Assembly (NCBI GenBank): GCA_029287915.1
Contig: JARFQE010000036.1
Location: 1 to 49,910, forward strand
Reading direction: 5' to 3'
Source of the DNA: Arenicellales bacterium
Lineage (GTDB): Bacteria; Pseudomonadota; Gammaproteobacteria; BMS3Bbin11
DNA: 49,910 nucleotides
In this document: in pieces, positions 3,142 through 45,479 of the stretch
Position numbering within the stretch: the first letter of the stretch is position 1
Layout: each line of letters begins with the position of its first letter
The notes under the pieces: model-generated
The model's database searches: none
The model's input: the letters and a program-made list of their open reading frames with translations, nothing else
What the model was told of the DNA's origin: nothing
Made by a program: the position numbers and the translations under genes

Positions 3142-3170
3142 ATTATATAATGATACCGAACGAAGAAAAC
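3142..3170 (-). promoter_or_regulatory. Candidate promoter of the outer-membrane barrel gene
   Basis: Read on the minus strand, TATAAT lies at 3147-3142 about 50 bases before the ATG, with only a poor -35 (GTTTTC) 17 bases upstream. The rest of the 3093-3427 gap shows no gene or strong hairpin. Confidence 0.25.
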
Positions 3171-3427
3171 CTACTGTGACAATTCCTTCTTTTGTTGCTT
3201 CAGAAGCTTTTGATTCGACCACTTATGCCTCGAGGCATCGGCCATGTTGTCTATCAGGTTCTCTGGTAAAGCCCGCACAGGAACAACGAGTTCGTTCTTC
3301 ACAGGTGACTGATCCAGCATGTATGGTTGATCACCTTCTGCATAATAGAGTTTACGTCTATTTTCTGCTCACGAACAAACGGTTACTAAATTCCTGCCAG
3401 TGAGTTTCTAAATAGCATCTAAAAGCA

Positions 3428-6535: not shown

Positions 6536-6541
6536 AAAATC

Positions 6542-6601
6542 AGGTTTTACGTATTAGGTTTTATGTGTTACGTAACACCAAGAACCTAATACGTAAAACC
6601 T
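6542..6601. repeat. Perfect 19-bp inverted repeat around a 14-bp palindrome
   Basis: The arms AGGTTTTACGTATTAGGTT (6542-6560) and its exact complement (6583-6601) flank a loop whose centre, GTGTTACGTAACAC (6565-6578), is itself a perfect palindrome. It fills the space between two convergent genes (stop at 6535, rsmE stop at 6615). The stem could stop transcription from both sides, but no run of T follows either arm. It may be a mobile or dispersed intergenic repeat. Confidence 0.9.
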
Positions 6602-6614
6602 AATACTTCATTAA

Positions 6615-7316
6615 CTAGCCAAGACGAAGCCGCGCTAACAAACTAACCGCGGCCGTTTCGATGCGTAGTATGTGTTGACCTAGACTCACTTTCTTCGCAC
6701 CAGCTGCAACCACACGCTTTATTTCATCATCGGTGAACCCCCCTTCAGGACCCACCATTAGCAACTTATCCAGATCACTGCAGGTAGCTATCACCTCACC
6801 ATCGGGATGTGCCAACAGAACTTCCCTGCCCTCTGCAAGTGCTGCCTGTGCTACGTCTTCAGGTTTTGCTGCTGGCAACAGTTCCGGCAACCAGGCCGAC
6901 CCACTTTGCTTGCAGGCCTCAAGGCAGATTCGTTGCCAGCGTTGATAGCTGTTTTTACCCGGCTTGCTGACACTGCGATGACACAGCAAGGGTTGCCAGC
7001 CACTGATACCTAGCTGGGTCGCCATATCAAGCAGAGTGGACTGACGATCTCCTTTTGCGATTGCTGTCGCAAGAAAGATATTCGGTATTTGGGGTGGTAT
7101 ATGGGTCACTGCACCGACCCTCAAATAAGCCGTATTGCGGCCTTGCAGATTTTCAACGGCTGCCTGCGTGACGTTTCCCTTACCATCAATAAGGCGTATC
7201 GTGTCACCCACATCGAGTCGCCTGACACCTAGAGCATGCCATGCTTCTTTACCCGATAAGGTAATCAGACTATCTGCATCAAATCCTTCATCCAGATAGA
7301 ACGTCGGCATGCTCAT
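6615..7316 (-). CDS. rsmE: 16S rRNA (uracil-1498-N3)-methyltransferase RsmE
   Basis: The 233-residue SPOUT methyltransferase methylates N3 of U1498 in 16S rRNA using S-adenosylmethionine. An N-terminal PUA-like part (about 1-70) is followed by the knotted catalytic domain with the signature MVGPEGGFTDDE and the C-terminal SLGQHILRIETAA. Length is as usual for the family. Its start overlaps the stop of rsmJ in an ATGA quartet (7313-7316), so the two are translationally coupled. It is the last gene of the perM-like/rsmJ/rsmE operon. Confidence 0.96.
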   Translation of the reverse strand: MSMPTFYLDEGFDADSLITLSGKEAWHALGVRRLDVGDTIRLIDGKGNVTQAAVENLQGRNTAYLRVGAVTHIPPQIPNIFLATAIAKGDRQSTLLDMATQLGISGWQPLLCHRSVSKPGKNSYQRWQRICLEACKQSGSAWLPELLPAAKPEDVAQAALAEGREVLLAHPDGEVIATCSDLDKLLMVGPEGGFTDDEIKRVVAAGAKKVSLGQHILRIETAAVSLLARLRLG

Positions 7317-8044
7317 GATTGCTTTCTCGTTGGTAGATAGACCTCGTAACGAACGACCTTCCCTGCATGCAGTGCGACATGATCATCAGCCAGCGGCGGT
7401 GCGTGCAATGGTCTTTTTACCACTACCCGGCGTGCTGCATGCTGACGTGCTATTCGTAAAAGTTTTTCATCATCCGTATCATCACCCACGATGTCGCGAA
7501 GTATGCGAACCGATTTCGGCGGCAACGCTGAACGTTTACGCTTTGCTGGAAACATGGGGTCCATGAATATCACATCGATGGCAGGAAGTTGCCGTATTAC
7601 TTCGATGGCATCACCAAAATGTGCCTCTATTTTATCAACCATGGAAAGAGAAGAATTTCTGGCACTGATTAATGCAGAGGCCAGTAAGGCAAAGACTACC
7701 GGGTGTCGCTCAATAGCAATAACCCGGTCAGCAATCATAGCCAGCCTGAGGCTGTCTCCACCGAGGCCGGCTGTAGCATCAATGACGGTGCCGCCACGTG
7801 CCGGCGCGAGCGCGCGTAGAAACGGCTGATTGCCAATAAAGCGGGAGGGCCTGGTTAAAGTTGGCCGTACTTTCTCTCCATCTGCTGAGATCAAGACTAG
7901 GCTGCCATTTTCACAGGACAAATAAAAGTCTTCTGCAGGGCAGCTGCTACATAACGGAAGATTCAGTAATGCCAGAGTTTCAGTCAGTTCTGTTGGCAGG
8001 CTGGCGTTACAGCTTTCCAGCAGCGGGATCTTATTCACCGGCAT
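7313..8044 (-). CDS. rsmJ: 16S rRNA (guanine-1516-N2)-methyltransferase RsmJ
   Basis: The 243-residue class I methyltransferase forms m2G1516 in 16S rRNA. The SAM-binding motif DATAGLGGDS is at 89-98, followed by IAIERHP, and the catalytic-type MDPMFP is at 161-166 with the basic stretch AKRKRSA after it. All are characteristic of RsmJ, a gammaproteobacterial protein. It overlaps perM-like by one base (TAATG) and rsmE by four bases (ATGA), a compact operon with two rRNA methylases acting on the decoding-site region. Confidence 0.95.
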   Translation of the reverse strand: MPVNKIPLLESCNASLPTELTETLALLNLPLCSSCPAEDFYLSCENGSLVLISADGEKVRPTLTRPSRFIGNQPFLRALAPARGGTVIDATAGLGGDSLRLAMIADRVIAIERHPVVFALLASALISARNSSLSMVDKIEAHFGDAIEVIRQLPAIDVIFMDPMFPAKRKRSALPPKSVRILRDIVGDDTDDEKLLRIARQHAARRVVVKRPLHAPPLADDHVALHAGKVVRYEVYLPTRKQS

Positions 8045-9120
8045 TATGAGGCTTTGGCATCATCAATTACATCACGTCGTGGCCAGACCTTGAGCAATAC
8101 CTGTACAACGGTCGCCAGTGGTATCGCAAAGAAAACTCCCCAGAAACCCCACAGGCCGCCAAAAACCAGTACGGCGATAATGATCGCAATGGGGTGCAGA
8201 TTTACTACCTCAGAAAACAGCAGTGGCACCAGAACATTGCCATCCAGTGCCTGAATAACACCGTAGGATACAATTAACCAGCCTGTCTGTGGAACCCAGC
8301 CCCATTGAAAGAATGCAATTAACATAACGGGTATAGTTACCACTGCAGCACCAATATAGGGAATAATCACCGACAGACCGACCAGTACTGACAACAACAT
8401 GGCAAACTGCAGGCCAAACAGTGAAAAAACGGCATAGGTCACTGACCATACAACAATAATTTCCCACGCCTTGCCGCGTACATACTTGGCGATCTGGCTA
8501 TTCACCTCAACCCATACTGTGGTGGCCAGCCTGCGTTGTTTTGGCAACAATCCTATTACCCAGTCTGTAATCAATTCCTTGTCTTTGAGAAAGAAGAAAA
8601 CCAGCAATGGCACCAGAAAAAGATAAACAACAATTGCAAGCAGGCCGGGTACCGATGCCAGTGACTGGGTAAGAAGGTATTGTGCTGTACCGCCAATTTC
8701 TGAGCGTAGAATAACTGCCAGTTCGCGAATCTGATTTTCGGTAATCATTGCCGGGTATTTTGCCGGCAGTTCAAGCAAGGCCTGCTGGCTTGCGGAAATC
8801 ATGCTCGGAATCTGCTGTAGTAGTTGGCTTACCTGGGTTGAAAGTAACGGTAATAACCAGAACAACAACAGTAAATATATTACCAGGAATAATGCGAAGG
8901 TGATTACCGATGCAACAAGGCGGCTCAGCTTTATACGCAGGAGTCTTCGTACTATGCCTTCCAGCAAATAGGCAATGATAATGCTGGCAAATACAGGTGC
9001 TAGCATGTCGCCCATAATCAGCACAACAAACAGTACACCTGCCAACAATAATAGCAATATCAGTGCTTGTGGATCAGAAAAATACCTCTGCCACCAGAGG
9101 CGTACCAGGTTCATTGACAT
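8044..9120 (-). CDS. AI-2E/PerM family membrane transporter
   Basis: The 358-residue integral membrane protein belongs to the AI-2E (PerM/YdiK/TqsA) family of putative permeases. It has about eight transmembrane helices. A pair lies at 18-65 after the family-typical N-terminus, one or more around 75-95, and a C-terminal set ends in VFGGLWGFWGVFFAIPLATVV, the conserved family signature. Members include exporters and sodium/proton antiporters, and the substrate here cannot be assigned. It is the first gene of the operon with rsmJ and rsmE. Confidence 0.9.
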   Translation of the reverse strand: MSMNLVRLWWQRYFSDPQALILLLLLAGVLFVVLIMGDMLAPVFASIIIAYLLEGIVRRLLRIKLSRLVASVITFALFLVIYLLLLFWLLPLLSTQVSQLLQQIPSMISASQQALLELPAKYPAMITENQIRELAVILRSEIGGTAQYLLTQSLASVPGLLAIVVYLFLVPLLVFFFLKDKELITDWVIGLLPKQRRLATTVWVEVNSQIAKYVRGKAWEIIVVWSVTYAVFSLFGLQFAMLLSVLVGLSVIIPYIGAAVVTIPVMLIAFFQWGWVPQTGWLIVSYGVIQALDGNVLVPLLFSEVVNLHPIAIIIAVLVFGGLWGFWGVFFAIPLATVVQVLLKVWPRRDVIDDAKAS

Positions 9121-22338: not shown

Positions 22339-22462
22339 ACTGGTGGCCCGCATATTGGAAAATAATTGGTTATTATATAAGAACTTACTTATATAATCAA
22401 TGCCTAGTAATTTAGTCAGGTATATCAAACTGATGTGCTTGAAATCAATAAAGTGAAAATTG

Positions 22463-23404
22463 ATGAACGCATTAACAATTCAAAATCTTCATAAACAGTA
22501 TGCCGGTGGCGTCAACGCACTAAAAGGTATCAATCTGGAGGTGGAAGCTGGTGACTTCTTTGCGCTGCTTGGTCCGAATGGTGCGGGAAAATCAACCGCT
22601 ATTGGAATTATCTCATCACTGGTCAGTAAAACCCGTGGCAGTGTATCCGTGTTCGGCCATGATATTGACAGTGACCCGGAATCGGTTAAATCCTGTATTG
22701 GACTGGTACCACAGGAATTTAATTTTGGTGTTTTTGAAAAAGTCTTCAATATTGTTGCCAATCAGGGTGGATATTATGGTCTAAAGCGGGAGCTTGCCAG
22801 GCAGAGAACAGAGAAATACCTGCGTCGACTGGGCCTCTGGGACAAGCGTGATACGGCTTCCCGTAACCTGTCAGGCGGAATGAAAAGACGACTGATGATA
22901 GCCCGCGCACTGGTTCACGAACCTGATATCCTTATTCTTGATGAGCCCACTGCCGGGGTTGATATAGAGATTCGGCGCTCAATGTGGGAGTTTCTGCGTG
23001 AAATCAATGAACAGGGGACTACAATTATCCTTACCACCCACTACCTTGAAGAAGCCGAAAACCTGTGTCGCAATATCGCCATTATTGATCACGGACTGAT
23101 TATGGAAAATACCAGTATGAAAAAACTGCTGGGCCAGCTCAACATGGAGACATTTCTGTTAGATACACGTGAAGCAGTGGATGTAGTGCCTGAGCTTGAT
23201 GGCTATTCACTGCTCAAGGTTGATGCTCATACACTGTCGGTAGATGTTGCCAAAGAGAATGCGCTCAATTCCTTATTCACACAGTTATCCGGTCATGGCA
23301 TAACCATCATCAGTCTGCGCAACAAGACCAACAGGCTGGAGGAGTTGTTTATGGGTATGGTGAATGAAAACAAAAAACCTGATGCACAGGCAAGGCAAAG
23401 CTGA
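22463..23404 (+). CDS. ABC transporter ATP-binding protein (YadG-like exporter type)
   Basis: The 313-residue ATPase has Walker [10 protein letters not shown] near residue 38, the Q-loop LVPQEF near 85, signature LSGGM near 138, Walker B LILDEP near 160 and the switch TTHYLEEAE. The C-terminal 90 residues are the extra domain found in ABC-2 exporter ATPases. I start at the ATG at 22463; a TTG directly before it is an alternative. It opens a plus-strand operon and its stop abuts the RND gene with no gap. The permease partner is encoded two genes later (25990), so the RND gene is inserted between the two ABC subunits. Confidence 0.95.
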
Positions 23405-25921
23405 ATGCAAAAGACGCTAATCAAGCTTTATGAGTCTCTGGTACTTAACAGACCCTGGCTAACGCTGGCCCTGTTAAGCATCCTGGTAGTTCCCGTTGCT
23501 TACTATAGCAAGGACTTCAGGCTCGATGCCTCTGCAGATACACTGGTGCTCGAGAATGATGCTGCTTTGCGTTATTACCGCTCTATTACTGCGCGTTATG
23601 GTTCTGAAGACTATCTCGTCATTACCTACACACCGACTAAAGGACTTTTCAGCAAAACCACGCTTGCCGATCTGGCCGAATTAAAACAACAGTTAAAGGA
23701 AATTGATCGAGTAGACAGCGTAACAACTATCCTTGATGTGCCACTAATCAACTCACCTCCTGTCACCTTATCAGAACTGAGTAAAAACATACGAACGCTG
23801 GAATCAGATGACTGTATTCCTGGTCTGGCCAGAAAAGAACTGACGACCAGCCCATTTTATAGCAATCTGATTATCAGCCCTGATGGCCACACTACAGCAC
23901 TGCAAATTAAACTTCGTCGTGAAGAAAAATGGCATGAGCTTTTTCAGCGGCGTAACGCTTTACGCATACAGCGGATGGAAAATACCCTGTCTCCAGAACA
24001 GGCGATTGAACTGGCGCAGGTGACGAAAAAATTTGATGATTATAGCGATAGCCTGCTGAAGCAGGAGCACGATGACATCCAGAAGATCCGCCAAATCATG
24101 GATGACCACCGTGATTCGGCAAAACTTTTCCTCGGTGGTGTACCGATGATTGTCTCTGACTCGATGGATTACGTCAGGAATGACCTGAAGGTGTTCGGTC
24201 TGGCTGTGCTGGGATTGCTGATCATTTTTCTATTTACCGCATTTCGTAAACCTCACTGGGTCTACCTGCCTGTGCTTACCTGTGGTGTCACTGGAATCTT
24301 CATGCTAGGGGTGCTCGGTGTGCTGGGCTGGCGAGTCACCGTAGTGTCATCAAATTTCGTCTCCCTGCTACTGATCATTACCATGTCACTAACAGTACAT
24401 CTTATTGTCCGTTATCGTGAACTACATGCTGCAAATCCGGATAACGATCAGTACTGGCTGGTAAGTCAAACAATTCGCAGTAAATTCTTACCCAGTTTTT
24501 ATACGGCGATTACAACTATGGTGGCCTTTGCCTCGCTGATCTTCAGCGATATACGACCCGTCATAGATTTCGGCTGGATGATGTTCATCGGTATTGCAGT
24601 GGCCTTCTTTTTCACCTTCACACTGTTCCCTGCCAGCCTGATGTTACTGAAGGCCGGCAAGCCTGGAAAGCTTCACGACATCACCGGCATCCTTACCCGC
24701 TACCTCGCAAACCTGATTGAACATAGAAAGCTTTGCGTTCTACTTGCAGCACTGATACTTGCCCTGCTGAGTATATTTGGTATTTCAAAACTGACAGTTG
24801 AAAACAGTTTTATCAGCTACTTTAAATCTTCGACCGAAATCCACCAGGGCATGAAACTCATCGATCTGGAGCTCGGGGGTACTACGCCACTGGATGTTAT
24901 CGTCGATGCGCCAAAAAGTTTTTATGAGGAAATTGAAGAAAACACGAAAGCAGACGTGGATGATTACGCTGATAGTTACCTGCATGATTACCCTGATCAG
25001 GGAGAAAGCGGAATCGCGGGATCAAGCTTCTGGTTTAATACATATATGCTGGAGGAAGTCGATAAAATTCACAGTTACCTCGATAGTCTACCGGAGACTG
25101 GCAAGGTACTGTCGATCAGTACTTCCATGCGAATGCTTCAACAATTGAAAGATGGTAAAAACCTGGATGACTTCTTCCTCTCAGTTCTGTTCAGTCGATT
25201 ACCCGATACGGTAAAACAAAGCCTGTTTACCCCCTATATGTCAGAAGATGGTAATCAACTACGTTTCAGTGCACGTATTATCGATTCTGACCCTGAACTA
25301 AAGCGCGCTGAACTGCTGTCGAGTATTGAAAAACACCTGATAGAGGATATGGGTTTTCAACCAGAGCAGATCCACTTGAGCGGCATGCTGGTGCTGTATA
25401 ACAACATGTTGCAAAGCCTGTTCAGCTCGCAGATCAAGACTTTGGGAGCGGTCTTTTTTGCCATACTGCTGATGTTCATCGTACTGTTTCGTTCATTAAA
25501 ATTCGCAGTACTGGCGATAATCCCGAATATCCTTTCGGCAGCAATGGTGCTTGGGCTTATGGGCGTGTTAGGTATCCCTCTTGATATTATGACAATTACT
25601 ATTGCTGCGATCACTATCGGTATTGCTGTTGATGACACTATCCACTATGTTCACCGCTTCCAGGAGGAATACTGGCAGGATAAAAACTACTGGTATGCCA
25701 TTATGCGCTGCCATAACAGCATTGGACGTGCAATGTATTACACTTCGGTAATTATTACAGTCGGCTTTTCCATTCTTGCTCTGTCGAACTTTATTCCGAC
25801 AATCTATTTTGGTCTGCTCACTGGTGCCGCCATGATTACTGCACTAATCGCAAACCTGACTCTTCTACCTTTATTGATAGCCATAGTCAGACCAATGGGA
25901 AAAACAGCTATTGCACACTAA
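23405..25921 (+). CDS. RND superfamily (MMPL/HpnN-type) transporter
   Basis: The 838-residue protein has the RND layout of two halves. In each, one N-terminal helix (about 18-32 and 437-456) is followed by a large extracytoplasmic domain and then a bundle of about five helices. The second bundle contains GIAVDDTIHYVHRFQEEY, a family signature with the paired aspartates of the proton path. The length and absence of a third partner suit the MMPL/HpnN class, whose members move lipids or other hydrophobic molecules between membranes. It is translationally adjacent to the ABC ATPase (TGA directly followed by ATG). The cargo is unknown. Confidence 0.92.
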   Translation: MQKTLIKLYESLVLNRPWLTLALLSILVVPVAYYSKDFRLDASADTLVLENDAALRYYRSITARYGSEDYLVITYTPTKGLFSKTTLADLAELKQQLKEIDRVDSVTTILDVPLINSPPVTLSELSKNIRTLESDDCIPGLARKELTTSPFYSNLIISPDGHTTALQIKLRREEKWHELFQRRNALRIQRMENTLSPEQAIELAQVTKKFDDYSDSLLKQEHDDIQKIRQIMDDHRDSAKLFLGGVPMIVSDSMDYVRNDLKVFGLAVLGLLIIFLFTAFRKPHWVYLPVLTCGVTGIFMLGVLGVLGWRVTVVSSNFVSLLLIITMSLTVHLIVRYRELHAANPDNDQYWLVSQTIRSKFLPSFYTAITTMVAFASLIFSDIRPVIDFGWMMFIGIAVAFFFTFTLFPASLMLLKAGKPGKLHDITGILTRYLANLIEHRKLCVLLAALILALLSIFGISKLTVENSFISYFKSSTEIHQGMKLIDLELGGTTPLDVIVDAPKSFYEEIEENTKADVDDYADSYLHDYPDQGESGIAGSSFWFNTYMLEEVDKIHSYLDSLPETGKVLSISTSMRMLQQLKDGKNLDDFFLSVLFSRLPDTVKQSLFTPYMSEDGNQLRFSARIIDSDPELKRAELLSSIEKHLIEDMGFQPEQIHLSGMLVLYNNMLQSLFSSQIKTLGAVFFAILLMFIVLFRSLKFAVLAIIPNILSAAMVLGLMGVLGIPLDIMTITIAAITIGIAVDDTIHYVHRFQEEYWQDKNYWYAIMRCHNSIGRAMYYTSVIITVGFSILALSNFIPTIYFGLLTGAAMITALIANLTLLPLLIAIVRPMGKTAIAH

Positions 25922-25989
25922 CTAAGTGTCTGGTTATAGATAAAACAGAATGCCTGAAACATTAACTATTGAATCAGCCCGATTATGAT

Positions 25990-26763
25990 ATGAGTAATAC
26001 AGTCCGATATACTGCATATAAAACGATCGTTACCCGTGAAATCACACGTTTTATGCGAATCTGGCCGCAAACTATCCTGCCACCAGCGATTACAATGTCT
26101 CTTTATTTCATCATTTTCGGTAGCCTGATAGGAAAACGCATTGGCACCATGGATGGCTTTAGCTACATGGAGTTCATCGTCCCGGGATTGATTATGATGT
26201 CCGTTATTACCAGTTCCTATGCCAATGTCGTGTCATCATTTTTCAGTATGAAATTTCAACACTCTATTGAAGAGATTCTGATCGCACCGGTTCCCAATTA
26301 CGTTATCCTCGCAGGTTTTGTCAGTGGTGGAGTGGCGAGAGGTCTACTTGTTGGACTGATTGTTACCATCATATCAATCATATTCACCGGACTGTCTATA
26401 GATAACTATCTCATAACCAGCTCTGTAATTCTTATGACGGCTATTTTATTTTCCCTGGCCGGCATGATTAATGCTGTGTTTGCGCGTAATTTTGATGATA
26501 TTTCAATCATACCCACTTTTGTACTAACCCCTTTGACCTACCTCGGCGGTGTCTTTTACTCTATCAAGTTATTACCCGAATTCTGGCAAAATGTATCATT
26601 AAGCAACCCGATTCTACACATGGTCAATGCCTTTCGTTATGGCGTCCTGGGTCAGTCTGATCTAAACATTTCCTATGCATTCATTATCATATTCGGCTTT
26701 ATCATTGTGTTGGTCGCCTGTACGCTATATTTGCTAAAGAAAGGGGTAGGTATACGTAGCTAA
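25990..26763 (+). CDS. ABC-2 type transporter permease (YadH-like)
   Basis: The roughly 257-residue integral membrane protein has six helices and the ABC-2 signatures FIVPGLIMMSVI and LTYLGGVFYSIKLLP, plus PILHMVNAFRYG near the end. It is the membrane partner of the ATPase encoded at 22463, together an exporter like YadG/YadH. An upstream in-frame TTG at 25969 could extend it by seven residues, and neither start has a strong ribosome binding site. Its position after the RND gene and before a radical SAM gene suggests that the transporter and the enzyme serve one pathway. Confidence 0.93.
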   Translation: MSNTVRYTAYKTIVTREITRFMRIWPQTILPPAITMSLYFIIFGSLIGKRIGTMDGFSYMEFIVPGLIMMSVITSSYANVVSSFFSMKFQHSIEEILIAPVPNYVILAGFVSGGVARGLLVGLIVTIISIIFTGLSIDNYLITSSVILMTAILFSLAGMINAVFARNFDDISIIPTFVLTPLTYLGGVFYSIKLLPEFWQNVSLSNPILHMVNAFRYGVLGQSDLNISYAFIIIFGFIIVLVACTLYLLKKGVGIRS

Positions 26764-26781
26764 ACCGTAAACTATGACGTC

Positions 26782-28266
26782 ATGAAAAATAACTGCACTA
26801 CAACTTGCTCTCGACAGGCAACAGACAAAGCTTATTCAAATCAGCACAAATCCGATCAGAATTTGCCTGATAAAAAAAGAATAGTTTTCATTAGCCCCTA
26901 TGACCTTGGCCGCCAGCCGTTTGCGCTGGCCGAACCCTCTGCCATATTTACCAGGGCAGGTTATGATGCCAAATGTCTTGATTTATCACAGCAAAAACTG
27001 ACAGATGATTTACTGGCACCAGCAAGTGTGGTTTTTATTTACCTCAGTATGCTGACAGCGACACGTATCGCAGTCGAAGCAATGCCACGCATTATAAAAA
27101 TGGCACCACTAGCAAGAATTGCGGTATTTGGCTGGTATGCACCGGTCAATGAAAAATTTCTGCGAGAACTGGGTGTTGATGCTGTGTTTGGTGGTGAGGC
27201 TGAAGATGACATGCTTGACTATGCTCGCTCTATTGTTGATCGTGACGATCATCCTGCACGAAATAAAACAGTGGTCAATCTGGGGCGTATTGACTTTATG
27301 GTACCTGATCGACAGTCGCTACCGGCTCTGGATAAGTATTCCCATCTCGTGTTGCCGGACGATAGCAGAAGAATCATGGGATTTACTGAAACCACTCGTG
27401 GCTGCAAGCACCTTTGTCGTCATTGCCCGGTGGTACCGGTTTACAGGGGCCGCTTCTATGCGATACCTGCTGATATAGTGCTGAAAGATATCCGTCAGCA
27501 GGTAACACAGGGTGCCCAACACATTTCATTTGGCGACCCGGATTTCCTCAATGGACCTGGCCATGCAAGGCGTATCATAGAGGCCATGCATGAGGAATTT
27601 CCATCATTGACATATGATGCAGTCATCAAGATCGAACATCTGCTGAAGCACCGTGATTTACTACCTTATCTTCGTGATACGGGGTGCATTCTGGTTACCA
27701 CGGCGGTGGAATCTGTCGATGACAAAATCCTCGAGCATCTCGATAAAGGCCATACTGCTGCAGGGTTTGAAGAGGTAGTCCAACTGATGTCTGAAAATGG
27801 TATAGCGCTGGCACCCACATTCATCCCCTTTACTCCGTGGACTACCATCATAAACTACATAGAATTACTGGAAAAGATTGCTGAGCTTAAACTGATCATG
27901 AGCGTCAATCCGGTACAACTTTCCCTGCGCCTGTTGATCCCCAGCGGCTCGCGGATACTAGAACTGCCGAAAGAGGAAACCTGTATCACCGGCTTCAACC
28001 CTGCATCACTGGGATATTCCTGGGTACACCGAGATCAGGAGGTAGATACGCTGCAGGAAAACATCCGACTGTGGACTGAAAAAGCAGAAAGCCAGGGACT
28101 TGATCGACTGCAGATCTTCAACGGCATTCGCCGCATTGCACTGAAGGCTGCCGGTAGAGACGATTTAGATGTCACAAAGGAGCAATGTGGAGACTCTGTT
28201 CCGGTGCACTCAGAATCATGGTACTGCTGCGCAGAACCCACTGAACAACAACTTGTCAGCTTCTAA
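26782..28266 (+). CDS. B12-binding-like/radical SAM protein with CCAEP tail
   Basis: The 494-residue protein has an N-terminal Rossmann-like B12-binding-type domain (about 32-150). A radical SAM domain follows, whose 4Fe-4S cluster cysteines are C208, C212 and C215 (RGCKHLCRHCP), with GDPDFLNG and the late AVESVDD typical of the barrel. The DxHxxG cobalamin-ligand motif is absent, so the N-terminal domain may bind no B12 or bind it base-on. The C-terminus reads YCCAEPTEQQ (C482, C483). I recall that this matches a family named for a CUAEP/CCAEP tail, in which some members have selenocysteine; here both codons are TGC. The reaction is unknown. It follows the ABC permease by 18 bases. Confidence 0.85.
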   Translation: MKNNCTTTCSRQATDKAYSNQHKSDQNLPDKKRIVFISPYDLGRQPFALAEPSAIFTRAGYDAKCLDLSQQKLTDDLLAPASVVFIYLSMLTATRIAVEAMPRIIKMAPLARIAVFGWYAPVNEKFLRELGVDAVFGGEAEDDMLDYARSIVDRDDHPARNKTVVNLGRIDFMVPDRQSLPALDKYSHLVLPDDSRRIMGFTETTRGCKHLCRHCPVVPVYRGRFYAIPADIVLKDIRQQVTQGAQHISFGDPDFLNGPGHARRIIEAMHEEFPSLTYDAVIKIEHLLKHRDLLPYLRDTGCILVTTAVESVDDKILEHLDKGHTAAGFEEVVQLMSENGIALAPTFIPFTPWTTIINYIELLEKIAELKLIMSVNPVQLSLRLLIPSGSRILELPKEETCITGFNPASLGYSWVHRDQEVDTLQENIRLWTEKAESQGLDRLQIFNGIRRIALKAAGRDDLDVTKEQCGDSVPVHSESWYCCAEPTEQQLVSF

Positions 28267-38058: not shown

Positions 38059-38251
38059 AGTCTGATAGAATATAAAAATCATACTTAATGAAAGAAGTGT
38101 ACTACCTCCTTTTATTTGACGAGATGCATGACCAACATGCTGATCGAGCAGCATTCTGCTGAGACGAACCAGCGACCGAAGCATAGACCACGATGGCTGG
38201 ACGCCAGCTTGCATCGAGATCAACATCGCATGCGTAATGGAACTGACATCA

Positions 38252-38989
38252 ATGACCAAACCATTTCTTATCATGCAGCTTCGCCCGGAGGACGATACCT
38301 CCGAAAGTGAATATGCGGCGATCCTGAAATACGGCGACCTTGATACCAAAGATGTCCATCGCCTGCGCATAGAAAAAAACGGTATCCCGGATGACCTTGC
38401 ACTGGGAAAGTATAGTGGCGTAATTGTCGGCGGCAGTCCATTTGATATCAGCACACCCGAGCAGGACAAATCAGAAATTCAGAAAAAAATTGAACAAGGT
38501 TTCAAAAGGCTGTTTGATGTAATTGTTCCCAATGATATACCTTTCCTTGGCGCATGTTCGGGTAATGGTTTGCTTGGTTCGTACCTGGGCACTTCAATAT
38601 CCTCCCGTTATGGCGAGGCAGTAGGATGCGTTGAGCTTGATATCACGGATGCTGGTAAAAGTGACCCGTTATTAACCGGTTTCCCGGACACTATCACAGT
38701 ATTGTTAGGACACAAGGAAGCCTGTGACGCGTTACCTGCCAGCGCTGTTTTATTAATGACCGGTAATGCCTGCCCGATACAGATGTTTCGTGTAGGCAGC
38801 AATGTATATGCAACCCAGTTTCACCCAGAAGGTGACGCTGAAGGCTTTACGTTGCGCATCCATGCTTATAAACATCATGGCTACTTTGAACCGCACGAAG
38901 CGGATTGTCTGATTGGTGCTGTGTGCATGGAAAAGACACCTTACGCTCAGGAAATACTTCGGCGGTTCGTAAGCCGCTATAAAAGTTAA
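38252..38989 (+). CDS. Class I glutamine amidotransferase-like protein
   Basis: The 245-residue protein is a stand-alone class I glutamine amidotransferase. The nucleophile Cys102 lies in the strand-elbow LGACSGNGLLG, and the partner His191 and Glu193 lie in QFHPEGD. No synthetase domain is fused, so ammonia would be passed to another protein or the enzyme may act as a hydrolase. I used the ATG at 38252 (MTKPFLIMQ), which fits the family; an ATG at 38237 adds five residues. Its neighbours downstream are an ATP-grasp ligase and an isoaspartyl peptidase, a context suggesting amide or peptide metabolism. GMP-synthase-like annotations are common for this group. Confidence 0.85.
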   Translation: MTKPFLIMQLRPEDDTSESEYAAILKYGDLDTKDVHRLRIEKNGIPDDLALGKYSGVIVGGSPFDISTPEQDKSEIQKKIEQGFKRLFDVIVPNDIPFLGACSGNGLLGSYLGTSISSRYGEAVGCVELDITDAGKSDPLLTGFPDTITVLLGHKEACDALPASAVLLMTGNACPIQMFRVGSNVYATQFHPEGDAEGFTLRIHAYKHHGYFEPHEADCLIGAVCMEKTPYAQEILRRFVSRYKS

Positions 38990-39203
38990 TAGGACTCAGG
39001 TCCCAATTTTCTTCAATACTCGCCCACCTCACCTGCTGACATATTGGGCATTGCAGTGGTTTGTCTGCACCAACATTGAACAAAAATCGCCTGCTCAGGC
39101 AGATGTAAGTTGTTAATATTGTTACATATCTTATTGTTTTTAATATGATTATTATCTTAATGTTAAGTGCGGCATAGTTATTGCTTCATTGGAATCAGGA
39201 GAA

Positions 39204-39281
39204 ATGAACTATTCGCCTGCAATAAATGTCCGGTCACTGTCGAGCGGCATTTATATCGACAGGCTTTTTGCATTTTGTTGA
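39204..39281 (+). CDS. Possible 25-residue leader peptide
   Basis: An ATG preceded closely by CAGGAG opens a 25-codon frame (MNYSPAINVRSLSSG...FAFC) whose second half covers a terminator-like hairpin. The spacing of the ribosome site to the ATG is short. The peptide has no obvious run of one amino acid, so it would not sense a single tRNA. It may be a chance frame. Confidence 0.25.
   Translation: MNYSPAINVRSLSSGIYIDRLFAFC
39237..39270 (+). terminator. Terminator-like hairpin in the leader of the ATP-grasp gene
   Basis: CTGTCGA (39237-39243) and TCGACAG (39256-39262) form a perfect 7-pair stem with a 12-base loop, followed by GCTTTTTGC. It looks like an intrinsic terminator or an attenuator about 85 bases before the ATP-grasp start. 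It could also simply end the amidotransferase transcript. Confidence 0.55.
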
Positions 39282-39355
39282 TTTACCAGTCATCACATTG
39301 GCATCTCTTATGCGCAAGGAGCTTTGACTCACATTCTTAATAGGATAGAACAACA

Positions 39356-40471
39356 ATGTCCAGTACGCTAAATCACGGATATCTGCCTTCGGGCCGTTAC
39401 ATAGTCAATCACGACATCATGCGTTGTACTGCTGAAGGCGTGGTGGGCAACAATCTTTATTCGGGGCGTGCACTCGGCCTGACCGAGCCGGAAGATTATA
39501 TTCAATTGCACCCTGACCTCAAACCACTGTGGGACGACATTGCACGCCATTACCGCCGTATTGGCCTCAACCATAGTGAAAATGTTATCTGGAACCTGAA
39601 CCTTAAACAGCTTTCAGCATACAAAGATTATCGGCCATCCGTATTCTATTTTGGGCCGGAAGAAGGGAAGGTATGGAATGATACCGACTGGGTTGAAACA
39701 GTCGAATTCATTAATTCGAAAAACAACTTCATGGCCCTGGCCACCGAACTGGGGATAGACGTACCACAAACACACTGTTTTGACAGCGTAAATAACATTA
39801 GTGAAATGGACATCTTCTCATTCAATATGCCCTGTTATCTGAAAGCGGCAATCTCGGTGTCAGGTGTCGGCATCTACCGTTGTGCCAATCGCGAGGAACT
39901 GCGCGATGCAATGGCTGCTTTCGAAGACGGTGTTCCGGTACAAGTGCAGGAAGAAATTGTGTCTGACGTTTTTCTTAACATGCAGTACCGGGTGATTGAC
40001 GGTCAACTCGTGCGTCTCGCAGTGAGCGAACAGATACTTGAAGGTTGTGCGCACCAGGGCAACCGATTTCCTGCCAGCCATGAGCCATGGGAGGCCGTCG
40101 AGCCGATGGCCCTCTGGCTCAGGGATAAAGGAATCAAAGGCATATTCGCGTTTGATGTCGCCGTCATCAAAACACCGGATGGAATTCGCTTCCCGGCTAT
40201 CGAATGCAACCCTCGCTTCAACGGTGCAACCTACCCAACGGTGATTGCCCAGAAAATGGACATACCGGAATGGAGCGCGCTGACATTCAAAACGTCGCAT
40301 CGAAACCTCAATGAGCTGGATTTAAGCGATATTGAATTTGACATGGCCACTGGCGAAGGTCTCATAATCGTAAACTGGGGCACCTTGCTGAAAGGGAAAC
40401 TTGTATTGCTGCTTGCCGGGTCGCCGGAATATCAGGAAGCATTAAAAAACGAGATTATTCACCGGTTATAA
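39356..40471 (+). CDS. ATP-grasp ligase, uncharacterised
   Basis: The 371-residue protein has an ATP-grasp fold. It shows the nucleotide-binding lysine K163 in PCYLKAAISVSGVGIY, the QEE triad at 198-200, and the metal-binding AFDVAV (D267) and IECNPRFNGATYP (E283, N285, R287). ATP-grasp enzymes join a carboxylate to an amine through an acyl phosphate. The N-terminal 110 residues (DIMRCTAEGVVGNN, FYFGPEEGKVW) are unusual and probably bind the acceptor. I do not recognise a named family. It is followed after 75 bases by an isoaspartyl peptidase and precedes the glucosylglycerate genes. Confidence 0.88.
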   Translation: MSSTLNHGYLPSGRYIVNHDIMRCTAEGVVGNNLYSGRALGLTEPEDYIQLHPDLKPLWDDIARHYRRIGLNHSENVIWNLNLKQLSAYKDYRPSVFYFGPEEGKVWNDTDWVETVEFINSKNNFMALATELGIDVPQTHCFDSVNNISEMDIFSFNMPCYLKAAISVSGVGIYRCANREELRDAMAAFEDGVPVQVQEEIVSDVFLNMQYRVIDGQLVRLAVSEQILEGCAHQGNRFPASHEPWEAVEPMALWLRDKGIKGIFAFDVAVIKTPDGIRFPAIECNPRFNGATYPTVIAQKMDIPEWSALTFKTSHRNLNELDLSDIEFDMATGEGLIIVNWGTLLKGKLVLLLAGSPEYQEALKNEIIHRL

Positions 40472-40546
40472 AACAGCTTCTGCTGGAGAAAAAATTTGAC
40501 GAATATGTGAGAATGCATGGATGCAAATATCTGTCCTGTGTGATCT

Positions 40547-41488
40547 ATGAGTGCTGCAAACAATTATTCAATAATGGTGCACGGTGGCGCCGGTGCGCTG
40601 GATAATGTAAAGGACGATAAAACCGCATTTCGCTATCTCGAAAGTATTCGGCAGGTACTTGAGCATGGCCGTAATGTCATTACGCTCGGCGGCTCAGCAC
40701 TGCAGGCAGTCGAAGCCTGTGCCTCGCTTCTGGAAGACGATCCCGTGTTCAATGCAGGGTGCGGTTCGGTCCTGAACGAAGATGGCAAAGTTGAAATGGA
40801 TGCGGCTATCATGGATGGCCGTGACCTGTCGGCTGGTGCCGTTGCTGCGGTGGATAATATCGCCAATCCAGTCCAGCTCGCGCGTTTGGTGATGAGCAAA
40901 AGCGAACATGTCATGCTGATATCAGAAGGGGCAATGCGCTTTGCAGAGCATTGCGGTATGTCGCGCGTACCCGAAGATTATTTCTATACTCCCGACCGCA
41001 TCGAACAGCTTCACCAGGCCCGCCTGCAACACAAGATCATGCTTGACCATGATGATACCGAGGAAGATACCGAAGACCAGAAGTACGGCACTATCGGTGC
41101 CATTGCACTGGATCCTGCTGGCAACCTGGCCGCCGCCACTTCAACCGGCGGCATTGTCAACAAGCGCATGGGCCGAGTCGGCGACTCACCGATAGTCGGT
41201 GCCGGTGTCTATGCAGACAACGAAACCTGTGCCGTATCAGCTACCGGCTTTGGTGAAGACTTCATGCGTTCTGTCATTTCCAAGACCATTTCTGATTTTA
41301 TCTGGATGAAAGAGATGAATGCCAGGCAGGCAACAGATGCCGGCATCGACTACCTTGTGCGCAAGGTGAACGGCCGTGGCGGCGTCATCGTTATCGATAA
41401 GGCCGGTAACTGCGCCAGTGGTTTCAGTACCAAAAAAATGATTCATGGCTGGATAGAAAAAGGCGGTGAGTCTGTATGCCGTTTTTAA
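40547..41488 (+). CDS. Isoaspartyl peptidase/L-asparaginase (Ntn-hydrolase)
   Basis: The 313-residue protein is a plant-type asparaginase family Ntn-hydrolase that hydrolyses beta-aspartyl peptides or asparagine after self-cleavage. The catalytic N-terminal threonine after cleavage is Thr182 in QKYGTIGAIAL, with the supporting HGGAGA (12-17) and AAATSTGGIVNK. An acidic loop (DHDDTEEDTED, about 167-177) precedes the cleavage site. The gene is directly downstream of the ATP-grasp ligase, so it may cleave or mature the ligase product. Confidence 0.92.
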   Translation: MSAANNYSIMVHGGAGALDNVKDDKTAFRYLESIRQVLEHGRNVITLGGSALQAVEACASLLEDDPVFNAGCGSVLNEDGKVEMDAAIMDGRDLSAGAVAAVDNIANPVQLARLVMSKSEHVMLISEGAMRFAEHCGMSRVPEDYFYTPDRIEQLHQARLQHKIMLDHDDTEEDTEDQKYGTIGAIALDPAGNLAAATSTGGIVNKRMGRVGDSPIVGAGVYADNETCAVSATGFGEDFMRSVISKTISDFIWMKEMNARQATDAGIDYLVRKVNGRGGVIVIDKAGNCASGFSTKKMIHGWIEKGGESVCRF

Positions 41489-41505
41489 TATTCCTCTTTT
41501 GTTCA

Positions 41506-41520
41506 GTAAGATGATCTTAC
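41506..41520 (+). promoter_or_regulatory. Short palindrome upstream of the phosphatase gene
   Basis: GTAAGAT and ATCTTAC are perfect complements around a single G. It lies in the 107-base gap after the peptidase gene and could be an operator, or chance. Confidence 0.2.
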
Positions 41521-41595
41521 CGCCATGCATCAAACCGCTATGAAGCGAAAGGTGTGTTCACCAGTGATCGCAACCACTGGCTGAAGTCATCAGTT

Positions 41596-42450
41596 ATGCG
41601 ATCAGTACAGGCCCCACGAATGATAGTTTCGACCGATCTCGACGGCACATTACTGGACCATTTCAGTTATTCCTGGCAAGCAGCACGGCCTGCAATGGAA
41701 AAACTTGCCAGCCTCGGAATACCCGTCATTCTGAACAGCAGTAAAACATATGCCGAGATCCGTGCATTACAGGAGCAGCTGGGTTTATCCGGACCATTTA
41801 TCGTTGAGAACGGCTCTGCCCTTTTTCTACCCGTGGATGACTTTGCCTGGCTACTAACAACCCAGCCCGCTGATCAAGCCGTCATTCAGGTTGATGGCTA
41901 CCTGCAGGTAGTGTTTGGCGCCCAGCGTGCGACTATCATAGATTATATAGGCGAGCTACGCAGGCAGCATGGCTGGGATTTTGAGGGGTTTAACGACTGG
42001 ACTGTTGCACAGATCATGACATACACAGGTCTTGATGAAGAAAGTGCCTCACAGGCTGCTGATAAGATGTTTTCCGAACCTATCCAGTGGAATGATAGCG
42101 AGCCAAATCTCTCATCGTTCACCAAGCAGCTGAAAACCCGCAAACTCAGCCTCCTTAAGGGTGGACGTTTTTATCATGTACAGGGCCAGACTGATAAAAG
42201 CAGACCGTTGCTGTGGCTGCAGGCGCTATACACCAGCAAAACAGATGCAACCCCACCACTTGTCTGTCTTGGTGACAGCGAGAACGATATACAGATGCTG
42301 AACGTTGCCGATCATCCCGTCTGTATCAGGTCACCTGTATCTGATTTTCCTGTGCTTCAGTCTGACAAACCCGTTATTAAGACAACGGCCTATGGGCCGG
42401 CGGGGTGGAACGAGGCAATTAATGCTATTCTATCGACGGAGTTACAGTGA
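41596..42450 (+). CDS. gpgP: HAD-IIB phosphatase, mannosyl-/glucosyl-3-phosphoglycerate phosphatase type
   Basis: The protein (284 residues from the chosen start) is a HAD-IIB phosphatase of the mannosyl-3-phosphoglycerate phosphatase family. It has the nucleophile motif STDLDGTLLD, NSSKTYAEI, KLSLLKGGRFYH, and the closing CLGDSENDIQML. Because glucosyl-3-phosphoglycerate synthase is encoded next to it, the likely substrate is glucosyl-3-phosphoglycerate. I used the ATG at 41596; a GTG at 41554 (14 residues longer) and an ATG at 41620 are alternatives, none with a strong ribosome binding site. Confidence 0.88.
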   Translation: MRSVQAPRMIVSTDLDGTLLDHFSYSWQAARPAMEKLASLGIPVILNSSKTYAEIRALQEQLGLSGPFIVENGSALFLPVDDFAWLLTTQPADQAVIQVDGYLQVVFGAQRATIIDYIGELRRQHGWDFEGFNDWTVAQIMTYTGLDEESASQAADKMFSEPIQWNDSEPNLSSFTKQLKTRKLSLLKGGRFYHVQGQTDKSRPLLWLQALYTSKTDATPPLVCLGDSENDIQMLNVADHPVCIRSPVSDFPVLQSDKPVIKTTAYGPAGWNEAINAILSTELQ

Positions 42451-42492
42451 ATAATCTAACAAAAATTTTAATTACCTTTAAGGCTGTTCAAC

Positions 42493-43713
42493 ATGGTTGA
42501 TTTCTATCAGAATGGAATAATCACGACTCTTCACAACCTGCACCAGCGCCCCGTCGAGGACATGGAAAAGGCGCTGAAAAAGTTCTCACGAAAACGGCCA
42601 ATGACCCTGATTCTTCCATCGCTATATTCAGAACTCGAAGGTGAAGCATTACCGAATATCGTAAACCATCTCAGCAAGGTCGATTATTTGTCTGAAATTG
42701 TAATCGGGCTGGATCGTGCAGATGAGAAACAGTATCGCCATGCTCTACAGTTCTTTAAACCACTGAACCAGAATTTCAAGTTGCTTTGGAACGATGGCCC
42801 ACGTCTACGTAAAATAGACAAAAAGCTGCGCAAGGAAGAACTCGCCCCAATGAATCCCGGAAAAGGTCGTAATGTCTGGTATTGCATGGGTTATGTTCTG
42901 TCTACAGGAACGGCCTCTTCGGTTGCATTGCACGATTGCGACATTCTGACCTATGACCGCGGTCTGCTTGCCCGCCTGTTCTACCCTGTTGCCGACCCCA
43001 GTTTTAACTATGAGTTCTGTAAAGGCTATTACGCAAGAATTGCCGATGGCGCTATCCATGGCAGAGTGACACGTCTGCTGGTCACCCCCCTGATTCGCGC
43101 TCTGAAAAAGACCTTGGGTCACAATGAATATCTCGATTATATTGACAGTTTTCGCTATCCACTTGCCGGTGAGTTCTCGATGCGTGCAGATGTCATTAAC
43201 GACCTGCGTATTCCCAGTGACTGGGGGCTGGAAATCGGCGTATTGTCTGAACTGAATCGAAACTATGCGAACAACCGCATTTGCCAGGCAGACCTTGCCG
43301 AATCATATGACCACAAGCACCAGTTACTGTCTGCAGATGATGCGGAGAAAGGCTTGTCAAAAATGACTGTCGATATATCCAAGGCCATATTCAGAAAGCT
43401 TGCAACCAATGGTTGTGTATTTACCAAAGAAACCTTTCGCTCGATCAAGGCCTGTTATTACCGCATCGCCCTGGATTTTGTAGAAACTTACAGTAACGAT
43501 GCCAAAATGAATGGCCTCGATCTGGATATACATGCCGAAGAACTGGCCATTGAACTGTTCGCCAAAAATATCATGGTGGCTGGCAAGGCCTTCCTTGATA
43601 AACCTATGGAAAAGCCATTCATCCCCAGCTGGAATCGTGTGATGAGTGCCATCCCTGATGTTCTGGAACAGCTAAATGATGCTGTTGAACAGGACATGAA
43701 GGAATACATGTAA
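42493..43713 (+). CDS. gpgS: Glucosyl-3-phosphoglycerate synthase
   Basis: The 406-residue GT-A glycosyltransferase transfers glucose from a nucleotide sugar to 3-phosphoglycerate, the first step of glucosylglycerate synthesis. It shows the GT2/81-like LILPSLYSE opening, ALHDCDIL with the metal-binding D148-x-D150, GKGRNVWYCMGYV for nucleotide contact, and the acceptor-region LAGEFSM. A good AAGGC site precedes the ATG. It sits 42 bases after the phosphatase and 17 bases before the phosphorylase, a single transcript. Mannosylglycerate synthase is an alternative, but GpgS fits better. Confidence 0.9.
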   Translation: MVDFYQNGIITTLHNLHQRPVEDMEKALKKFSRKRPMTLILPSLYSELEGEALPNIVNHLSKVDYLSEIVIGLDRADEKQYRHALQFFKPLNQNFKLLWNDGPRLRKIDKKLRKEELAPMNPGKGRNVWYCMGYVLSTGTASSVALHDCDILTYDRGLLARLFYPVADPSFNYEFCKGYYARIADGAIHGRVTRLLVTPLIRALKKTLGHNEYLDYIDSFRYPLAGEFSMRADVINDLRIPSDWGLEIGVLSELNRNYANNRICQADLAESYDHKHQLLSADDAEKGLSKMTVDISKAIFRKLATNGCVFTKETFRSIKACYYRIALDFVETYSNDAKMNGLDLDIHAEELAIELFAKNIMVAGKAFLDKPMEKPFIPSWNRVMSAIPDVLEQLNDAVEQDMKEYM

Positions 43714-43730
43714 CTAACATCTGACGCTAG

Positions 43731-45479
43731 ATGAATCAGCAATCAGAAGACAACCTCGAATTTCGCATTTGCACATTTCTAGAGCTTCTCTATCCGCAGT
43801 GCGATTGCAATGCACTGACCACTAAACTGCTGGCGCTGATGGAACTCGAGGGAAATTCATCGATCCTGCCCGGGATAAATGAAAACTGGAATGAACATGA
43901 TGCCTGGCTGATCACCTATGGCGACAGCCTCATAGGCATCGATGAGAAGCCATTAAAAACGCTGGAACACTTTCTAAAAAGTGAGCTCGAAGGTGTCATA
44001 AACGGAGTACATATCCTGCCTTTTTTTCCTTACAGCTCGGATGATGGCTTTTCAGTCATTGACTATACCCAGGTTAATGATGCACTGGGGGACTGGCAAA
44101 ATATCGAAAGCATTGCATCAGATTTCAAGGTCATGTCTGACCTCGTGATCAACCATTGCTCGAGTGAAAGTGAATGGTTTAAAAATTACAAAGCGCGAAA
44201 GGACCCAGGACGGGATTATTTTTTTGAGGCATCGCCCGATGAAGATCTTTCTCAGGTGGTTCGGCCCAGAACATCACCGCTACTGCAGGAGGTCGAAACC
44301 AGAGATGGCAAACGTCATGTCTGGTGCACCTTCAGCCACGATCAGATCGATCTCAACTTTGCTAATCCGCAGCTGCTGTGTGAAATCGTAGGCATCATTA
44401 AATTATATCTTGACCATGGAATTCGAATCTTCCGCCTTGATGCCGTTGCCTTTCTATGGAAAGAACCGGGAACTAGCTGTATTCATCTCTCCCAGACGCA
44501 TACGATCATTCGCCTGTTGCGTACTTTAATTGAGCATTACTCGGATGAAGCAATACTGATTACCGAAACCAATGTACCAAACCATGAGAACCTGTCCTAT
44601 TTCGGTAATTCGAACGAAGCCCATGCGGTTTATAATTTTTCACTGCCACCATTATTGCTGCACGCATTGATCAGCGGCACCAGCAAACATCTCCGCACCT
44701 GGCAGATGAGTATGCCGCCAGCATTAATGGGAACGTTCTATTTCAACTTCATCGCTTCCCATGACGGCATAGGCCTGCGCCCTGCTGAAGGCCTACTGGA
44801 TGAACAGGAGATAGATGAACTGGTCAGTACATTGCGCAAGTTTAATGCGCGCATATCATATCGCACAGCAGATGGTGGTAAGAAAAAACCCTATGAGATT
44901 AATGCAACACTATATGATTCATTGCAGGGCACGCTTAACGGTACTGACCAGTGGCAGTTACAACGATTTATGTGCACACAGGCAATAATGTTCGCGATGG
45001 AAGGTATCCCTGCTATCTATATCCATAGCCTGCTCGGTACAAACAATTACCTTGAAGGTGTTGAGGCAACAAAGCAGAACAGGACCATTAACCGCTATAA
45101 ATGGCGATTCGATGAACTAAACAGGAAGCTCACTGACACCAGTAGCCATCACCACCAGGTGTTCACAAAGATCAAAGAACTGCTGCGAATCAGGACCCGG
45201 CAGCCGGCCTTCCATCCCAATGCGGTCCAGTTCACATTACAGCTCGGTAATGATGTATTTGGATTCTGGCGCCAGAGCAGATACCGTGAACAGAGCATAT
45301 TCTGTCTGCATAACGTGACAGACCACGAGGTAGTTATCCCACTTTCTTCGATCAACCTGATCAGCTTTGACACCTGGATCGACCTGGTCGGTGGACAGAA
45401 ATTTGATGATTTCAGACAGGACCTGAAATTACAGCCATACCAGTATGTCTGGCTTTCAAATAAGGAATACAAGAACTGA
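43731..45479 (+). CDS. GH13_18 sugar phosphorylase (glucosylglycerate/sucrose phosphorylase type)
   Basis: The 582-residue GH13 protein has the subfamily 18 layout with HILPFFPYSSDDGFSV near 94-109. The catalytic nucleophile is D237 in FRLDAVAFLWKE, the acid/base E279 is in LITETNVPN and the transition-state stabiliser D345 is in ASHDGIGLRP. Members phosphorolyse sucrose, glucosylglycerol or glucosylglycerate to release glucose-1-phosphate. Next to gpgP and gpgS, glucosylglycerate is the best guess, so the operon would both make and recycle this solute. Neighbour-based assignment; the acceptor is not proven. Confidence 0.88.
   Translation: MNQQSEDNLEFRICTFLELLYPQCDCNALTTKLLALMELEGNSSILPGINENWNEHDAWLITYGDSLIGIDEKPLKTLEHFLKSELEGVINGVHILPFFPYSSDDGFSVIDYTQVNDALGDWQNIESIASDFKVMSDLVINHCSSESEWFKNYKARKDPGRDYFFEASPDEDLSQVVRPRTSPLLQEVETRDGKRHVWCTFSHDQIDLNFANPQLLCEIVGIIKLYLDHGIRIFRLDAVAFLWKEPGTSCIHLSQTHTIIRLLRTLIEHYSDEAILITETNVPNHENLSYFGNSNEAHAVYNFSLPPLLLHALISGTSKHLRTWQMSMPPALMGTFYFNFIASHDGIGLRPAEGLLDEQEIDELVSTLRKFNARISYRTADGGKKKPYEINATLYDSLQGTLNGTDQWQLQRFMCTQAIMFAMEGIPAIYIHSLLGTNNYLEGVEATKQNRTINRYKWRFDELNRKLTDTSSHHHQVFTKIKELLRIRTRQPAFHPNAVQFTLQLGNDVFGFWRQSRYREQSIFCLHNVTDHEVVIPLSSINLISFDTWIDLVGGQKFDDFRQDLKLQPYQYVWLSNKEYKN

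Follow-up and report, generated by a model that had tools for sequence, protein, structure and literature searches.

In a stretch of 49,910 nucleotides (nt) from an Arenicellales bacterium (contig JARFQE010000036.1, positions 1 to 49,910; hereafter the window), the gene for an ATP-grasp ligase and the following gene for an isoaspartyl aminopeptidase (IaaA) form a conserved unit, which is carried by a number of gammaproteobacteria. In the window the pair is followed by a glucosylglycerate operon, which is a separate module. We give an even chance to the reading that the pair is a nitrogen-starvation cassette, which makes and hydrolyses a beta-aspartyl amide and is here joined to the operon of a nitrogen-free solute. 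The promoter points to nitrogen starvation, the fold of the ligase to amide ligation and the partner enzyme to a beta-aspartyl bond. The two genes and the sites predicted upstream of them are as follows.

39066 to 39082, plus strand: NtrC-like site TGCACCAACATTGAACA, score 9.4, left half good and right half poor
39169 to 39185: second sigma-54 candidate GCGGCATAGTTATTGCT, score 21.1, 103 nt below the NtrC-like site
39298 to 39314, plus strand: putative sigma-54 -24/-12 promoter TTGGCATCTCTTATGCG, score 21.3 of 25, beginning 58 nt 5' of the ATP-grasp start
39356 to 40471, plus strand: ATP-grasp ligase, 371 amino acids, with the fold of ATP-grasp amino-acid/peptide ligases (8ynd, 3wvq, BesA, SAOUHSC_02373)
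40547 to 41488, plus strand: IaaA, isoaspartyl aminopeptidase/plant-type asparaginase, an N-terminal nucleophile (Ntn) hydrolase with Thr182 as nucleophile (Asparaginase_2, PF01112, E 1.2e-104)

Conservation of the ATP-grasp/IaaA pair

Homologues were gathered by scanning genome contigs, which gave 5 loci, and from 369 gammaproteobacterial genomes, 37 relatives and plasmids. Eighteen loci harbor a full-length ATP-grasp homologue of at least 43% identity (the window, L002-L006, L010, L035-L043, L067 and L112). G343 is identical to L002 and was counted once; a distant protein in L045 (25% identity) and fragmentary or weaker matches from the 369-genome scan were omitted. IaaA was also found in 15 of the 18 loci, and in the paired loci it is located downstream of the ATP-grasp gene on the same strand. 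The spacing is 9-133 nt in 12 of 13 measured pairs, with 75 nt in the window; a transglutaminase-like gene separates the two genes in L035. The first-pass annotation had treated the first three genes of the window locus as a unit that makes and recycles a small amide or peptide. That they form a unit is correct for the ligase and IaaA, but the amidotransferase that precedes them was judged to lie outside the unit, since no homologue was located in the stretches covered (3.3-19 kb) of the 17 other ATP-grasp loci.

Homologues without an adjacent IaaA, and a further partial one, are located at:

L042, 1791 to 2936, and L043, 8791 to 9936: ATP-grasp homologues with degenerate motif
L112, Acaryochloris sp. 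'Moss Beach' plasmid pMB03 (NZ_CP071720.1), 5453 to 9113: ATP-grasp region, 51% identity, motif intact
L044 (genome G350), 7455 to 7865, minus strand: ATP-grasp-like open reading frame (ORF) of 136 amino acids, which resembles only residues 22-83 (63% identical)

L042 and L043, which represent two congeneric genomes more than 95% alike, carry GCRPWYSD in place of the ATP-grasp motif ECNPRFNG. A ligase without IaaA was thus seen only after motif loss or in a cyanobacterium (L112). IaaA was not present in the distant L045 locus either.

The association was also found when starting from the hydrolase. The IaaA query matched in 52 of the 369 gammaproteobacterial genomes. In 12 of these genomes IaaA is 62-100% identical over at least 237 residues (one is cut by a contig end), and all 12 adjoin an ATP-grasp gene, which is intact in ten and a decayed remnant in two (G010 and G350). 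The remaining matches do not exceed 51% identity, except a 42-residue fragment in G360 (79%). The remnants beside IaaA in G350 are located apart from the ORF in L044. The decay of the ATP-grasp gene beside an intact IaaA indicates that loss of the ligase can precede that of the hydrolase. Sixteen cassette IaaA proteins, of which two adjoin remnants, group in a single clade with support 0.97, apart from 18 other IaaA matches.

In a sample drawn across the phylum, 5 of 398 genomes gave a match, at full length only the window's own. Six genomes of the same genus harbor neither ligase, IaaA nor glucosyl-3-phosphoglycerate synthase (three of them are only 60-75% complete), and G750 of the same family has the pair. 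This patchy distribution suggests gain and loss. A phage collection yielded no match that would indicate phage carriage, and the plasmid search gave a single match, the Acaryochloris plasmid without IaaA alongside. No paper or experiment on the ATP-grasp/IaaA pair was found among the literature matches listed (PMC10206079 and PMC8939145 included), which were judged mostly by title and start of the abstract, with subscription papers mostly outside the coverage.

A mirror-tree comparison of ligase and IaaA pairwise identities (r 0.88 over 15 loci) was given no weight because much of the correlation rests on L041, without which r is 0.57. In L042 a gene for a C39-like peptidase and one for a RimK-like (RLAN) ATP-grasp protein are located close to the ATP-grasp homologue, and in L112 a gap of 34 nt separates the homologue from a preceding glycogen phosphorylase gene.

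Sequence and fold of the two enzymes

The window IaaA shows full-length homology to E. coli IaaA (2zak, E 6.8e-72). Thr182 corresponds to the Ntn nucleophile, as the alignment with the E. coli IaaA beta subunit (1jn9_B) begins at query residue 182. T182, T200, R210, D213, T233 and G234 are identical in 17 of 17 IaaA proteins; the Arg, Asp, Thr and Gly residues are those that we take to form the substrate site. With PF01112, a Thr nucleophile after the autocleavage site and these substrate-site residues, the protein has the features expected of a member of the IaaA family. It differs from E. coli IaaA (EcAIII) by its own clade, by its pairing with a ligase and by a score of 277.7 bits against the E. 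coli-type equivalog NF007589, whose cut-off is 567.

The ATP-grasp protein matched no Pfam family at E 0.001. At E 0.1 the window protein and 15 relatives matched ATP-grasp families only weakly (lowest E 1.4e-5, in one member). A search for a solved relative by sequence returned nothing convincing: the best PDB profile match is a D-Ala-D-Ala ligase (E 0.012), and the fold relatives described below are absent among the 21 matches listed. An AlphaFold (AF2) model was built from 16 sequences (mean pLDDT 84) and gave Foldseek matches with E 1.7e-18. Via this model the ligase aligns with 3wvq_A over 348 residues (Z 30.7, root mean square deviation 2.8), spanning residues 14-371. The nearest solved folds (Z 28.5-30.7) are 8ynd/8ynq, an ATP-grasp peptide ligase from Streptomyces; 3wvq/3wvr, presumably PGM1; SAOUHSC_02373 (7r8p/q), which we take to be an L-aspartate-L-methionine ligase; and BesA (8yi6), which uses the gamma-carboxyl of glutamate. 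The next group follows at 22.9. The order of a pre-ATP-grasp and an ATP-grasp domain along the modelled chain is that of these ligases, whose fold the modelled protein shares together with the catalytic ATP-grasp residues. K163 is kept in 16 of 16 aligned homologues and E283, N285 and R287 in 14 of 16, the window included and the motif being lost in L042 and L043; we assume that these four residues form the ATP/magnesium site. The window ligase differs from its fold relatives in sequence (14-18% identity), and no natural-product cluster was recognised among the scanned neighbours of window-type ligases.

The N-terminus of the ligase had been described as matching no known family. This holds for Pfam, but a new N-terminal fold was rejected, as the model aligns with 3wvq from residue 14. 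Because almost the entire model aligns with folds of amino-acid/peptide ligases, the N-terminus is a diverged pre-ATP-grasp domain. Based on the fold relatives, including the chemistry assumed for BesA and SAOUHSC_02373, the protein is likely an acyl-phosphate amide ligase, and an acidic amino acid is a fair guess for its donor.

Predicted nitrogen control of the pair

An alignment of 11 regions upstream of ATP-grasp genes first revealed a sigma-54-like promoter and an NtrC-like half-site. Seventeen such regions (L112 was excluded) were scored against consensus sequences for a GG-N10-GC promoter and an NtrC 17-mer upstream of it, and joint sites were accepted when the promoter was positioned 30-120 nt 5' of the start. 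Both consensus sequences agree with those in PMC8743547. Joint sites occurred in 13 of the 17 regions versus 2 of 192 control upstream regions under the same rule, and in none of 50 shuffle rounds of the 17 regions. In these 13 regions the sigma-54 site begins 54-74 nt before the start and an NtrC-type site is located upstream of it in every case; the sigma-54 site of the window shares this conserved position. The distance between the two sites is 84-98 nt in 11 of the 13 and forms two groups (84-87 and 96-98) about one helical turn apart; the outlying distances are 44 nt in L036 and 232 nt in the window. The two controls that passed are L004_7, which precedes the ligase gene in L004, and the phosphatase gene of a second glucosylglycerate operon in the window's genome (G000:C116).

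The window's genome encodes NtrC (707 bits, above the cut-off), RpoN, glnA and glnK. The latter two are known elsewhere as NtrC targets, and here both carry both kinds of site, TGCACTAAACTGGTGCA and CTGGCACGATTCTTGTT for glnA and TGCACCAAAATGGTGAA and TTGGCACGGTATCTGCA for glnK, with the promoter 166 nt (glnA) and 124 nt (glnK) before the start. A promoter with an upstream 17-mer, in a genome with NtrC and RpoN, would be expected of a member of the NtrC/sigma-54 regulon. The joint signature of the ATP-grasp genes appears to be new in this analysis. It makes nitrogen limitation a likely condition for the pair, in agreement with the nitrogen-limited cells envisaged by the first-pass annotation.

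The L004 cassette is located about 2.3 kb from nitrate-type ABC transporter genes, identified by sequence reading, and the transporter has sigma-54 and NtrC-type sites. The stretch L004:3-5511 comprises a formate/nitrite-type transporter, an ANTAR-type regulator and the nitrate-type ABC transporter genes, all named by sequence reading without a family search. At L004:10065-10131 a near-perfect sigma-54 site, CTGGCACGGTAATTGCT (24.8 of 25), precedes a nucleotidyltransferase-family gene downstream of IaaA; no NtrC-type site was located above CTGGCACGGTAATTGCT in L004. A homologue of this gene adjoins IaaA in L047.

Flanking genes of the window locus

All six ORFs of the locus are present on the plus strand. 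The four that flank the pair, and the second copy of the operon in the same genome, are:

38237 to 38989, plus strand: class I glutamine amidotransferase (GATase; PF00117; NF005743 301.9 bits, above the cut-off), not part of the unit
41554 to 42450, plus strand: HAD-IIB glucosyl-/mannosyl-3-phosphoglycerate phosphatase (TIGR01486 208.8 bits, cut-off 164.75)
42493 to 43713, plus strand: glucosyl-3-phosphoglycerate synthase, GpgS (NF040724 370.5 bits over residues 3-405; DCDI motif)
43731 to 45479, plus strand: GH13_18 glucosylglycerate phosphorylase (GH13 alpha-amylase family; TETN and loop-A Glu)
L066 (G000:C116), 1 to 3390, minus strand: second HAD-GpgS-GH13 operon of the window's genome, GH13 cut by the contig end

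The gap from the amidotransferase to the ATP-grasp gene is 366 nt, and those that follow are 75, 65, 42 and 17 nt. The motifs named earlier for these genes were recovered: Cys102, His191 and Glu193 of the amidotransferase were counted by hand on the translation, numbered from the in-frame ATG at 38252 that the first-pass annotation had used as start. The phosphatase may start at an in-frame ATG at 41596. GpgS gave no match in the Pfam scan and its score is below the curated NF040724 cut-off of 700. The GH13 protein, which scores 228.3 bits against TIGR03852 and thus under the sucrose-phosphorylase cut-off of 334.4, carries TETN at residue 278 and the loop-A Glu in KKPYEIN at residue 385; this Glu aligns with Gln of two GH13_18 structures. 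The (T/S)ETN motif and the loop-A Glu are marks of glucosylglycerate phosphorylase according to PMC7178133, in which the gene company of this enzyme is also described. By these marks the GH13 protein is a predicted glucosylglycerate phosphorylase, and the last three genes fit synthesis and phosphorolysis of glucosylglycerate, as had been proposed. The operon is like known GpgS/phosphatase/phosphorylase operons in genes and signature motifs, but differs by its location downstream of the ligase-IaaA pair.

No terminator-like site was identified on the plus strand from 38900 to 43226, thus none between the pair and the phosphatase, and a scan of the window against Rfam gave no known RNA family at gathering scores. 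The window operon has no sigma-54/NtrC site of its own, whereas in the second copy (G000:C116) the phosphatase gene is preceded by two NtrC-type sites and one sigma-54 site, so that glucosylglycerate may be under direct nitrogen control through this copy.

Proposed function and alternatives

Under glutamine shortage, phosphorylated NtrC at its upstream site would activate sigma-54 polymerase at the ATP-grasp promoter. The ligase would convert a carboxylate to an acyl phosphate and couple this to an amine; the resulting small amide would contain aspartate and would most likely be a beta-aspartyl compound. IaaA would hydrolyse the beta-aspartyl bond to aspartate and the amine; that the ligase product is its substrate is suggested by the co-occurrence. 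As IaaA would reverse the ligation, the pair may control how much of a small conjugate is present, or first trap amine nitrogen and later release it. In the window's genome the transcript probably continues into the glucosylglycerate operon, and with such read-through the same signal would also yield a nitrogen-free anionic solute that replaces glutamate. According to a review (PMC11009771), glucosylglycerate can replace glutamate when nitrogen is limiting, so that joint NtrC control would be sensible.

Cyanophycin metabolism (CphA1, cyanophycinase and IaaA) likewise combines a ligase and an isoaspartyl dipeptidase around aspartate and nitrogen. CphA1 has a Mur-ligase-like part, whereas the window ligase, with its 371 residues, consists of pre-ATP-grasp and ATP-grasp parts only, and no cyanophycinase family was detected among 20 Pfam-scanned neighbours. 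The gene for IaaA is clustered with those for CphA1 and cyanophycinase in some of the genomes that encode these enzymes (PMC10206079). The pair might thus represent a previously undescribed, NtrC-controlled system for soluble beta-aspartyl conjugates with a dedicated ligase and a dedicated IaaA subfamily, a gammaproteobacterial, polymer-free counterpart of cyanophycin turnover; we propose this tentatively and with some doubt.

Several observations weigh against the proposed cassette. To make an amide in nitrogen starvation while its hydrolase is also produced would be futile unless the two enzymes act at different times or in different places. The promiscuity of IaaA enzymes extends to those of cyanophycin clusters (PMC10206079), and the partner therefore does not identify the substrate. 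The persistence of IaaA after decay of the ligase in two genomes indicates some ligase-independent role. G750 has a second, partial IaaA copy (C182, 165 residues, 84%) at a contig end, whose upstream neighbour is outside the contig, and the intact L112 homologue has no IaaA within 17 kb on the Acaryochloris plasmid. Sequence profiles give no link between the ligase and its fold relatives. The thresholds and the position rule for the promoter were fixed only once 11 of the 17 regions had been viewed in an alignment, and as the loci are related, the 17 regions are not 17 independent cases. The window sites are 232 nt apart and weaker than those of its relatives (p=0.065 for sigma-54 and p=0.030 for NtrC in 200 dinucleotide shuffles). 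Joint sites are absent from the paired loci L038 and L041 and from the unpaired L042 and L043, and the best sigma-54 score of L112 (17.3) corresponds to background (control mean 18.0). The promoters of glnA (166 nt) and glnK (124 nt) fail the 30-120 nt rule, and in five of six other glucosylglycerate loci the scan of upstream stretches gave no sigma-54/NtrC sites.

The ligase could also form an ordinary alpha-linked dipeptide, like SAOUHSC_02373, for signalling, defence or amino-acid buffering, with IaaA as a co-regulated general scavenger of isoaspartyl peptides and asparagine that would liberate nitrogen during starvation and is not directly linked to the product. The fold match to SAOUHSC_02373, 3wvq, 8ynd and BesA, the promiscuity of IaaA in other systems (PMC10206079) and its retention beside decayed ligases are consistent with this. 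However, all 12 members of this IaaA subfamily found across the 369 genomes adjoin the ligase or its remnant, and a clade of its own exceeds the needs of a general scavenger, which leaves the dipeptide route an improbable but serious candidate. Gamma-glutamylation routes for putrescine or isopropylamine are the model for a rather unlikely third reading, an amine-salvage detour in which the ligase attaches an amine to aspartate, a further enzyme modifies the amine part, and IaaA then releases aspartate together with a product for nitrogen assimilation. Such a detour accounts for the joint production of ligase and hydrolase, and both the NtrC/sigma-54 sites and the nitrate-type transporter near one cassette (L004) are consistent with nitrogen scavenging, but it lacks a widely shared third gene. 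The widest-shared other neighbours are ABC-transporter-type ATPases, which occur in 5 of 26 loci at varied positions and are probably grouped by general family likeness alone. The 20 neighbour proteins scanned with Pfam belong to many different families, and L003, L005 and L006 have common flanks.

The first-pass annotation had joined all six genes in a salt- or nitrogen-responsive compatible-solute system, in which amidotransferase, ligase and IaaA make a second solute beside glucosylglycerate. The single direction, the short gaps past the ligase and the lack of a terminator-like site before the phosphatase agree with this, as does the vicinity of IaaA to glucosylglycerate genes in G010. The six-gene set was rejected, as tblastn detected GATase, HAD, GpgS and GH13 in none of the 17 other full-length ATP-grasp loci (stretches of 3.3-19 kb, several of them short). 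Nor is the pair generally tied to the glucosylglycerate genes: in G750 the two are on separate contigs, and G010, the only other genome in which IaaA was found close to them, has a divergent arrangement and a decayed ATP-grasp gene. The amidotransferase, in addition, has no sigma-54/NtrC sites within 450 nt upstream. A six-gene system is thus very unlikely.

Under the proposed beta-aspartyl cassette, the unnamed ATP-grasp gene becomes a testable system with a conserved partner, a predicted low-nitrogen signal and a ready assay. If correct, it would add a new nitrogen-starvation metabolite in gammaproteobacteria that are known mostly from metagenomes, and glucosylglycerate synthesis under NtrC in one genome would provide a simple genetic basis for the swap from glutamate to a nitrogen-free solute.

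Elsewhere in the window, positions 22460-28266 harbor genes for an ABC ATPase, a large RND-type exporter, an ABC permease and a B12/radical-SAM-like protein, named by sequence reading, in tight order on the same strand.

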